From: Streptomyces sp. NBC_01016
Lineage (GTDB): Bacteria > Actinomycetota > Actinomycetes > Streptomycetales > Streptomycetaceae
DNA: 64,000 bases
Assembly: GCF_026341035.1 (NCBI RefSeq)
Contig: NZ_JAPEOQ010000002.1
Location: 248,001-312,000 of the forward strand
Direction: 5' to 3'
Shown: positions 48,038-52,175 of the stretch, piece after piece
Layout: each line of letters starts with the position of its first letter
How positions within the stretch are numbered: position 1 is the first letter of the stretch
Program-made: the position numbers and the translations under genes
Notes under the pieces: model-generated
What the model was told of the DNA's origin: nothing
Databases searched by the model: none
What the model saw: only the letters and a program-made list of their open reading frames with translations

Positions 48038-48192
48038 TGTGAAGTGAAAACGTCCGCCGTACGGGTGCCTGCCACCTCGTGCGGCGGATCGTTGATATAT
48101 AGGCAAGGCGCACAAGAAATCCTCCCCAGCAGCGCTCGGCACTGCCGGGCACCGCTCGACGCAAACGACAGAGGAAGGCACGGCCGCCGCAC

Positions 48193-49200: not shown

Positions 49201-49878
49201 ATGCGCTTCAACCGAATGCTGCTGTCCACGGTCCTTGTCGTCGTGGCCCTCGTCCTCCAGGTCTGTGTCCTGGCCCGGCTGCAACTGCCCGGCGCCGTCC
49301 CCGACCTGATGCTCCTCACCGTCCTCGGCCTGGCCCTCGTGTACGGGCACGTGGGCGGCGCCTTCGTCGGCTTCGGCGCGGGACTGCTCGCCGACCTCGC
49401 CCCGCCCGCCGACCACGCCGCCGGCCGCTACGCCCTCGTGCTCTGCGTCATCGGCTATCTGGCGGGCCTCGCCAAGCCCGAGAACGGCCAGCTGCGTTCG
49501 GCCGCAGGACCCATGCTCGTGGTCGTCGGCGCCGCCATCGGCACGACCCTGCTGTACGCGGGTGTGGGCGCGCTCGTCGGCGACACCGCCGCCCGCGACG
49601 TCGGCCTCGGCAGCCTCATCTTCACCGCGGCCCTCTACGACCTGCTGCTCGCCCCGTTCGTCGTACCCGGGGTGATGGCGCTCGCCAGACGGGCGGAGAA
49701 CGATCCGCTGGGCGAGACCTCGGGCAGCTCCGCCAAGGCCGCCGACGTCTCCTCCGGCTGGCTCTCCGGCGGTGGCACAGGCCTGAGCATCGGCGGCAAG
49801 AGCGGCGGCCTGCGCATGCGGACGGTCAAGGCGCGCGCCTCCCGCGCGGGCCGCATCAAGGGGGTCAAGCGCCTGTGA
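49201..49878 (+). CDS. mreD: Rod-shape determining protein MreD
   Basis: 225 residues, five or six predicted helices (STVLVVVALVLQVCVLA, LMLLTVLGLALVYGHVGGAF, ALVLCVIGYLAGLA, AGPMLVVVGAAIGTTLLYAG). The ~55-residue C-terminal tail is Ser/Gly/Arg-rich and cytoplasmic, longer than in Gram-negative MreD. Its TGA overlaps the GTG of a 29-codon ORF (49875-49964) by four bases. Member of the elongation (rod) complex used at spore-wall synthesis. Confidence 0.95.
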   Translation: MRFNRMLLSTVLVVVALVLQVCVLARLQLPGAVPDLMLLTVLGLALVYGHVGGAFVGFGAGLLADLAPPADHAAGRYALVLCVIGYLAGLAKPENGQLRSAAGPMLVVVGAAIGTTLLYAGVGALVGDTAARDVGLGSLIFTAALYDLLLAPFVVPGVMALARRAENDPLGETSGSSAKAADVSSGWLSGGGTGLSIGGKSGGLRMRTVKARASRAGRIKGVKRL

Positions 49879-49964
49879 GCGCACGGCAGTTGACCGACGA
49901 CAGCGCAGGCACGCACAGCTTCGGCGTGTACACCTACTCGTACTCGTACACGTCCTCGTACTGA
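49875..49964 (+). CDS. Candidate small Tyr/Ser-rich peptide between mreD and the PBP2 gene
   Basis: A 29-residue ORF: (M)SARQLTDDSAG THSFG then VYTYSYSYTSSY, no predicted membrane helix. The GTG start overlaps the mreD stop as GTGA, the classic layout for translational coupling, and its stop is 18 bases before the GTG of the PBP2 gene, whose ribosome site (GAGAGGGGGAG) begins right at this ORF's stop. The tail is seven Tyr/Ser/Thr pairs from repeated TACTCG codons. I do not recognise it. It could be a real small protein (or leader peptide controlling PBP2 translation) or just a spacer; conservation data would decide. Confidence 0.5.
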   Translation: MSARQLTDDSAGTHSFGVYTYSYSYTSSY

Positions 49965-49982
49965 GAGGGGGAGCACGCCACA

Positions 49983-52175
49983 GTGACCAACATCCCCGAG
50001 ACGGGCCGGACACCCCGCGTCCAGATCCGCCTCATCATCCTCCAGATCCTCGTCCTCTCCCTCCTGCTCACCCTCGGCGGCCGCCTCTGGTACCTCCAGA
50101 TCCGCAACGGCGACGAGTACGCCAAGGAGGCGTCCGGGAACCACGTCCAGCAGGTGGTCACGCCCGCCACCCGCGGCTCCATCCTCGACGCCCGCGGCAT
50201 CCCGCTCGCCGACAACGAGACCCGGCTCGTCGTCTCCGCCTCCCGCACCGACCTGATGAAGATGGACGACGACGGCAAGGCCGTCCTCGCCAAGCTCGCC
50301 AAGGTCCTCGGGCTGAAGCCCAAGCAGGTCCAGGAGAAGGTCCGGCTCTGCGACGCGAAGACGCCGCAGCCCTGCTGGAACGGCTCGCCGTACCAGCCGA
50401 TCCCGATCACCGACGAGGCCACGCCCAAGCAGGCCCTGCAGATCCGCGAGCGCAGCGAGGACTTCCCCGGCATCACCGCGGAGCCCACCGCCGTGCGCCG
50501 CTACGCGGGACCCGGCGGCTCCAACACCGCGCAGGTCCTCGGCTATCTCTCCCCGGTCACCGACGCGGAGATCGAGAAGGCCAAGAACTCCGACTCGCCG
50601 TACCTGCGCTCCGACCAGGTCGGCCGCAGCGGCCTGGAGCGCACGTACGACAAGGACCTGCGCGGCAAGGCCGGCGTCACCCGCTACGAGGTCGACAACC
50701 TCGGCCGCGTCATCGGCCGCGCCGAGAGCGACAAGGCCGAGCCCGGAGCGAACGTCGTCACGTCGATAGACGCCCGCGTGCAGTCCGTCGCCGAGAAGGA
50801 GCTGGACGCGGCGATGAAGGCCGCCCGGCACGAGTTCGACAAGAACACCGGCACGAACTACAAGGCCGACGCCGGCTCGGTCGTGGTGATGGAGGCCAAG
50901 ACCGGCCGCGTCGTCGCCATGGCCTCCAACCCGACGTACGACCCGAACGCCTGGGTCGGCGGCATCTCCGGCAAGGACTACTCCAAGCTCACCGGCAAGA
51001 AGTCCAACTACCCGCTGCTGAACCGGGCGATCCAGGGCCAGTCGGCGCCCGGCTCGATCTTCAAGGTCATCTCCAGCACCGCCGCGGTCAACGCCGGCTA
51101 CCCGTTCAACGGCCGCTACCCGTGCACCAGCTCGTACTCGATCGGCAGCCAGGTCTTCAAGAACTTCGAGTCGGAGAACTTCGGCCCGATCAGCCTCGGC
51201 CGCGCCCTCGAGGTCTCCTGCGACACCGTCTTCTACGGCATCGCCCACAAGGAGTGGCAGAAGCTCGGCGGCATCCACCCCAAGGCCGGCGTCAACACCG
51301 ACGACTCGTTCTACAAGACGGCCCACCAGTTCGGTCTCGGCAAGGAGACCGGCATCGACCTCCCCAACGAGGTCAACGGCCGGGTCCCCGACCGGAAGTG
51401 GAAGCAGCAGTACTGGAAGGCCAACAAGGACGCCTGGTGCAAGGGCGGCAAGCGGGACGGCACCTACGTCGAGCGCCTCAACTGGGAGAACTGCCGCCAG
51501 GGCAACGTGATGCGCGCCGGTGACGAGGTCAACTACTCCATCGGCCAGGGCGACACGCTCGTCACCCCGATCCAGATGGCCAGGATCTACGGCGCCATCT
51601 CCAACGGCGGCACGCTCTACCAGCCCGCGGTCGGCAAGGCCGTGATCAGCCCCGACGGCAAGCAGGTCAGCGAGATCGCGCCGAAGGCGCAGGGCAAGCT
51701 GCCCATGACGAAGCAGACCCAGCGCCACATCGACCAGGCCCTCGCGGGCGTGGCGACCCGGGGCACCGCCGCCTGGCGCTTCGGCGGCTGGCCGCAGAAC
51801 AAGATCCCGATGCACGCCAAGACCGGCACGGCCGAGGTCTACGGCAAGCAGACGACGTCGTGGTTCGCGACGTACACGAAGGACTACTCGGTCGTCATGA
51901 CGATCGCCCAGGGTGGTACGGGTTCCGGAGCCTCGGGCCCCGCCGTCCGCAAGATCTACGACGCGCTCTACGGCGTCGACAACAAGGGCGGCATCAACAA
52001 GAAGAAGGCCCTGCTGCCCGAGCCGGAGAAGAGCCTGCCGAAGATCCAGAAGGACGGTTCGATCGACGCCCCGGAGATCAAGCCGTTCCAGCCCGGCAAG
52101 GACACGACGCCCGCCCAGCAGGAGCTGGCGGCGACGCTGCCCACCTCCTCGTACGGCAACAGCAGGAGGGACTGA
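49983..52175 (+). CDS. mrdA: Elongation-specific class B penicillin-binding protein 2
   Basis: 730 residues, high-molecular-weight class B transpeptidase. One N-terminal membrane helix (LIILQILVLSLLLTLGG), a dimerisation/pedestal domain (ATRGSILDARGIPLADN), then the transpeptidase: active-site Ser in APGSIFKV (S358-IF-K361), the SxN-equivalent region YSIGQGDTLVTP, and KTG in HAKTGTAEV (~605). It cross-links peptidoglycan during spore-wall synthesis in the MreB/RodA complex. The ~45-residue C-terminus is Pro/Ser-rich. Starts at GTG 49983 after GGGGGAG; rodA begins three bases after its stop. Confidence 0.95.
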   Translation: MTNIPETGRTPRVQIRLIILQILVLSLLLTLGGRLWYLQIRNGDEYAKEASGNHVQQVVTPATRGSILDARGIPLADNETRLVVSASRTDLMKMDDDGKAVLAKLAKVLGLKPKQVQEKVRLCDAKTPQPCWNGSPYQPIPITDEATPKQALQIRERSEDFPGITAEPTAVRRYAGPGGSNTAQVLGYLSPVTDAEIEKAKNSDSPYLRSDQVGRSGLERTYDKDLRGKAGVTRYEVDNLGRVIGRAESDKAEPGANVVTSIDARVQSVAEKELDAAMKAARHEFDKNTGTNYKADAGSVVVMEAKTGRVVAMASNPTYDPNAWVGGISGKDYSKLTGKKSNYPLLNRAIQGQSAPGSIFKVISSTAAVNAGYPFNGRYPCTSSYSIGSQVFKNFESENFGPISLGRALEVSCDTVFYGIAHKEWQKLGGIHPKAGVNTDDSFYKTAHQFGLGKETGIDLPNEVNGRVPDRKWKQQYWKANKDAWCKGGKRDGTYVERLNWENCRQGNVMRAGDEVNYSIGQGDTLVTPIQMARIYGAISNGGTLYQPAVGKAVISPDGKQVSEIAPKAQGKLPMTKQTQRHIDQALAGVATRGTAAWRFGGWPQNKIPMHAKTGTAEVYGKQTTSWFATYTKDYSVVMTIAQGGTGSGASGPAVRKIYDALYGVDNKGGINKKKALLPEPEKSLPKIQKDGSIDAPEIKPFQPGKDTTPAQQELAATLPTSSYGNSRRD

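Follow-up and report, generated by a model that had tools for sequence, protein, structure and literature searches.

In this work, a 29-codon mini-ORF between mreD and pbp2 was followed from the window, i.e., the whole 64,000-nt stretch of Streptomyces sp. NBC_01016 DNA that was analysed, through the corresponding junctions of its relatives. It is very probable, in our estimation, that this mini-ORF is a relay (bridging) ORF which couples the translation of mreD to that of pbp2. The comparison of junctions shows, at the level of sequence, that its start, an SD-like site, its frame and its stop position are kept, with synonymous support in the neighbouring genes and no constraint on the peptide. 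We infer that the mini-ORF is translated and that the output of PBP2 depends on it. We hypothesize that ribosomes finishing mreD at GTGA would re-initiate on the overlapping GTG, aided by the SD-like site in the last mreD codons. They would then translate the spacer and stop at the TGA adjoining the PBP2 SD, and PBP2 would begin 18 nt downstream or, in other species, via an NTGA overlap or a second mini-ORF. Selection would act on an unbroken transit of ribosomes and a correctly placed stop, and the peptide would be disposable.

The mini-ORF in the mre operon of the window

The features of the junction are given in Table 1. The 29 codons of the mini-ORF read VSARQLTDDSAGTHSFGVYTYSYSYTSSY, its GTG and the mreD stop overlap in the sequence GTGA, and its TGA (49962-49964) is separated from the PBP2 GTG by 18 nt (49965-49982), with the SD-like GAGAGGGGGAG running straight on from the stop. 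The position, overlap, length and distance described in the earlier note are thereby borne out. The products MreB, MreC, PBP2 (PBP dimer and transpeptidase domains) and FtsW/RodA all scored above the Pfam cut-off, MreD matched below it (E 2e-4, 21.9 bits vs a cut-off of 24), and the mini-ORF peptide had no match in Pfam. The TAC/TCG repeat at the end of the mini-ORF, which had been thought unexpected by GC bias, is in keeping with how Streptomyces usually encodes Tyr and Ser; over 28 codons the mini-ORF has a GC3 of 0.93. In DNA so rich in GC, 29 codons without a stop would by themselves be unremarkable, and it is the comparison across genomes, not the length of the ORF, that lifts the mini-ORF above chance. 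The scan of positions 49700-50100 of the window found no promoter, including no sigma-70-like one, and no terminator, and no Rfam family reached its gathering score over the mre region. One 82% match elsewhere in its own genome (L002) consists of a short repeat of the GTAC type next to a GC hairpin and was taken as chance.

Table 1. Features in and near the mreD-pbp2 junction of the window
Feature	Position	Strand	Remarks
mreD	49201..49878	+	SD-like AAGGGGG in last codons; CTG-TGA end gives NTGA start; synonymous constraint at a Gly codon and the last Leu codon
SD-like AAGGGGG within mreD	49858..49864	+	10 nt 5' of the mini-ORF GTG
Bridging mini-ORF, 29 codons	49875..49964	+	GTGA overlap with mreD stop; frame kept in relatives; peptide unconstrained in the comparison
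TGAGAGGGGGAG	49962..49973	+	mini-ORF stop fused to the SD-like site of PBP2
pbp2, class B PBP, GTG start	49983..52175	+	Pfam
mreB-mreC gap	48038..48192	+	control region; mostly unbridged in relatives

Reading frame at the junction in relatives

Junctions were collected with a PBP2 N-terminal query, which gave matches in 294 of the 295 genomes of the window's genus and none in the remaining one. The best 80 of 226 named Streptomyces loci were taken, and more loci were added from the genus and the family, with only part of the genus matches used, those of higher similarity first. From 311 records, 284 were parsed by mreD-tail and PBP2-head patterns and 250 were left after removal of identical junctions: the window, 80 named Streptomyces, 162 other genomes of the genus and seven of other genera. 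The sample is skewed to close relatives, and the 250 rows cannot be counted as so many independent events. A second reading method covered 25 records beyond the kept set (23 from other genera and two from the genus); for 112 of the 119 parsed junctions, its reading matched that of the first.

None of the 250 distinct junctions, 243 of them from the window's genus with the window included, was interrupted: 19 are direct NTGA overlaps of mreD and PBP2, 198 have one bridging ORF and 33 have two chained ORFs. Frame disruption, which the earlier note had named as the result that would reduce the mini-ORF to a spacer, was consequently not seen. Moreover, mreD ends in NTGA in 250/250 junctions (240 GTGA, 6 TTGA and 4 ATGA). 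The 231 junctions with a spacer range from 16 to 332 nt, and in every one of them the last mini-ORF ends shortly upstream of the PBP2 start or overlaps it (-20 to +8). In 97 junctions, the class to which the window belongs, a single ORF ends 11-19 nt 5' of PBP2, at exactly 18 nt in 65 of them; the other one-ORF junctions overlap the PBP2 start by 4 nt (91) or 8 nt (8) or abut it (2). Each junction thereby has the overlapping or near stop and start of a translationally coupled pair, and the coupling into the operon that the earlier note proposed gains strong support from this comparison.

A bridging rule applied to spacers of at least 25 nt passed frame 0 in 211/211 spacers, frame +1 in 111/211 and frame +2 in 81/211. 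Because the rule is permissive (192 of the 422 control frames pass), the argument rests on the 211/211 together with the synonymous tests given below. By the same rule, the mreB-mreC gap was bridged in 6, 11 and 11 of 81 junctions per frame (28/243 frames); its size is 111-301 nt, and its lengths cover all residues modulo 3 (35/23/23). In the window, this gap contains an AT-rich GTTGATATATAGGC stretch, which may hold a separate mreC promoter.

Comparing the total spacer length modulo 3 between sister pairs told little (35 pairs in frame, 44 out of frame and 29 equal; 13, 22 and 5, respectively, for the mreB-mreC control), because changes after the ORF stop and second-ORF inserts are free, and therefore the distance anchored on the stop was used instead. 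Of the 101 junctions with TGAGAGGGG, 96 have its TGA in frame, across 35 distinct distances. In the five out-of-frame junctions, as well as in all 14 in which this TGA is replaced by CGA, the ORF instead ends where it overlaps either PBP2 or the second ORF as NTGA. Among 48 non-overlapping closest pairs with the TGA kept in both members, the distance changed in frame in 33 and out of frame in 4 and was equal in 11; these values were 35, 8 and 12 when the CGA rows were added. A FastTree tree built from 249 flanks, which are short and so leave many branches weak, requires at least 68 changes of the stop distance but 5 of its frame. In L003, the nearest named relative, the mini-ORF is four codons longer and in frame. 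Spacers have also been enlarged by tandem duplication: the peptides of L075, L091 and L101 contain repeats of whole codons, and L305 has a 48-nt unit.

Of the seven junctions from other genera within the 250, three are direct, two overlap by 4 nt and two abut. Another 23 junctions, all from genera of the family other than the window's, were read by the second method; mreD and PBP2 overlap directly in 5, a bridge is present in 11 (starting from CTG in one), and 7 are unbridged or unclear. As these junctions read, the relay is not universal in the family. In three of the other-genus loci (L293, L294 and L305), the mreD-PBP2 spacers carry a repeated in-frame unit of the (H/C/F)P(S/P)P-TT type.

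Synonymous choices, the peptide and the proposed route of coupling

The last Leu codon of mreD ends in C in 0 of 228 spacer junctions, vs 63% CTC at other nearby Leu codons, and GGG or GGA encodes the Gly located five codons ahead of the stop in 223/228, vs 656 of 2760 other nearby Gly codons, although the probabilities computed for both tests ignore relatedness. The choice at the Gly codon keeps AAGGGRG about 10 nt 5' of the NTG. The conserved GTGA overlap is a kept choice of CTG-TGA, and not a mere by-product of how mreD ends. In PBP2, a comparable choice is found at the other end of the spacer. When the phase is such that the ORF can use neither the TGA ahead of the SD nor the one at the start codon, it must stop within PBP2 codons 2-3. 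These codons supply a TAA (ACTAA or AGTAA) in 21/21 junctions that need it and in 1/229 others; ACT makes up 11 of 975 nearby Thr codons. Seven independent pairs on well-supported branches agree with this dependence and none disagrees (sign test about 0.016). The same device at codon 2 occurs in another genus (L282, L283 and L286), with TCT before AAC, and in a third (L304 and L305), with TCT before AAT.

The earlier note had also proposed a new small protein of the spore-wall machinery, and we consider a functional, Tyr/Ser-rich member of that complex highly improbable. Its frame, start and stop are indeed conserved, and the C-terminal VYTYSYSYTSSY is identical in the nearest named relative. 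However, over 31 independent pairs pN/pS was 1.02 for the mini-ORF, whereas the mreD tail gave 0.42 and the PBP2 head 0.12; the mini-ORF estimate is noisy, with 0.73 and 1.08 when read in the two shifted frames. The last ten codons gave 1.23, and substitutions in 29 pairs were spread evenly over the codon positions (139/126/121); no amino-acid constraint was detectable in the mini-ORF. In one-ORF junctions the peptide can be as short as 2 or as long as 105 residues (median 31), and the 19 direct-overlap junctions lack it altogether. Neither purifying selection nor a domain known to Pfam, which would mark a functional small protein, was found. Against the relay as well, GC3 over all mini-ORFs is 0.75-0.80 vs 0.93 in mreD, a codon signature that is weak by this measure.

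An extremely improbable reading is a programmed frameshift or stop readthrough that would join MreD or PBP2 to the mini-ORF peptide. The mini-ORF lies in the PBP2 frame in 74 of the 97 gap-type junctions, including the window, as this reading would have it, but it is in another frame in the other 23 and in the 91 junctions with an NTGA overlap; furthermore, the peptide appears unconstrained, and an NTG start is not needed for frameshifting.

The suggestion that the mini-ORF is a leader controlling PBP2 translation holds only in the sense of ribosome delivery; an attenuator does not fit, as no conserved peptide, sensing codons, terminator or Rfam family was found and folding gave no clear sign of SD occlusion. 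For the 85 gap-type spacers that were folded, the mean opening energy was 11.9 kcal/mol when free, 10.5 kcal/mol with 28 nt upstream blocked and 12.4 kcal/mol when shuffled, and it was below the shuffled value in 55/85 (p 0.02). The corresponding values for the window were 12.2, 11.2 and 10.6 kcal/mol. An unfolding model, in which the spacer occludes the SD, is not favoured by the folding energies of these 85 spacers.

The spacer might instead be an intergenic control region with a promoter, in which the open frame is incidental. Sigma-E-like GSAAC-N15-19-NGTY matches occur in 69 of the 191 spacers of at least 60 nt vs a mean of 4.2 in mononucleotide shuffles, with related rows counted repeatedly, and mreB is a published sigma-E target according to the available part of PMC6767563. 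This reading is nevertheless quite improbable: the window has neither a sigma-E-like match nor a sigma-70-like promoter, and a promoter explains neither the frame conservation nor the synonymous constraint. A promoter in the spacer may coexist with the relay. In relatives with sigma-E-like sites in the spacer (e.g., L037, L048 and L049), a pbp2-rodA promoter may sit within the bridging ORF.

It is also conceivable, if unlikely, that the frame is kept to shield the spacer from Rho (polarity) and not to deliver ribosomes. Unbroken translation across spacers of any length is predicted equally by such shielding. On the other hand, the mreB-mreC gap of the same cluster, which may have its own promoter, is mostly unbridged, and Rho alone does not explain why stops are placed at the NTGA or at +8 of PBP2 with synonymous changes at codon 2. 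Protection from Rho may play a part, but the mostly unbridged gap and the precision with which stops are placed make it unlikely to be the full explanation. It is presumably the delivery of ribosomes, rather than RNA unfolding or Rho protection, that matters in the proposed relay. In the window's class, PBP2 has a strong SD of its own and could start alone, so the coupling there may raise expression rather than gate it.

Known systems and significance

Termination-reinitiation coupling at NTGA is known, and the available part of PMC12548453 lists the -4 (NTGA) and -8 overlaps among the enriched spacings, with coupling being best at short distances. The same two overlaps are found at the mreD-PBP2 junctions; what differs from the coupling described there is the interposed ORF, whose peptide is free to vary and of which only the frame is kept, over spacers of 16-332 nt. 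Short ORFs that deliver ribosomes are likewise known from integrons, as ORF-11, ORF-18 and the short ORFs of attC sites, the latter lying between two cistrons and the stop of ORF-11 being supplied by the inserted cassette (PMC8876359, available part), and from the synthetic 'nonsense' nfORF (PMC13255528, available part). As far as these texts describe them, the mini-ORF resembles all of these in that an inconsequential peptide would carry ribosomes to a downstream start. Unlike them, it lies between two chromosomal cell-wall genes, is found genus-wide and involves synonymous choices in both neighbours. No description of the mreD-PBP2 spacer or of the dispersed repeat treated below was found among the open-access literature titles listed, and the available parts of PMC4416010 and PMC4255298 do not mention the spacer.

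The second mini-ORF of relatives has a layout of its own. In 29 of the 33 two-ORF junctions, the second ORF region resembles (M/V)TNAHPSPTTTLPTNGLRP followed by a stop, and a GGGC-N3-GCCCATG hairpin lies over the PBP2 start codon in 29/33. All 11 genomes searched contain a dispersed unit of about 50 nt, composed of CCCRCCCGTCNCCCACCACCRCCCT and a short GC hairpin; each has 5 to 23 matches at E 1 or better, many of them weak. The window's own genome has 15 pattern matches to it vs 0 for a reversed control, two of which (L348 and L354) sit between two ATGA, like the second mini-ORFs. Copies lie, for example, at L080:2438-2506, at G000:C2:2304121-2304174 (L316/L348) and at L354, and the unit sometimes stands at start codons with an ATGA-coupled ORF. 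On eight dispersed-repeat loci, Rfam gave four matches up to E 1, none of which reached the gathering score or covered the repeat. Mycobacterial interspersed repetitive units (MIRU) are short repeats located at start codons, each with an ORF of its own that overlaps the gene by 4 nt (PMC12548453, section 11). The second mini-ORFs of many relatives and the copy at G000:C2:2304121-2304174 show this arrangement of a dispersed repeat with an ORF overlapping the start by 4 nt, and the dispersed unit is possibly a MIRU-like mobile element; the likeness drawn here is one of layout. The window's own mreD-PBP2 junction differs from MIRU in carrying no such repeat.

An interposed ORF selected for transit alone would be a new form of translational coupling. 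We lean slightly towards the existence of a class of relay ORFs, i.e., sequence-indifferent frames kept open between conserved genes solely to pass ribosomes. Their raw material would be any sequence that arrives at the site, be it an in-frame tandem duplication, an insert carrying a promoter or a MIRU-like mobile repeat, and their stops would come from synonymous changes in the neighbours. If this class is general, a share of the small, unconserved ORFs of GC-rich operons would be neither noise nor proteins, and the conservation of a small-ORF frame need not imply a functional peptide. With more than 200 natural variants of one junction, selection on translation becomes separable from selection on the peptide, and the same variants form a ready series for the study of termination-reinitiation in Streptomyces. 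For the spore-wall machinery, the relay suggests that the supply of PBP2 is tied to the translation of MreD.
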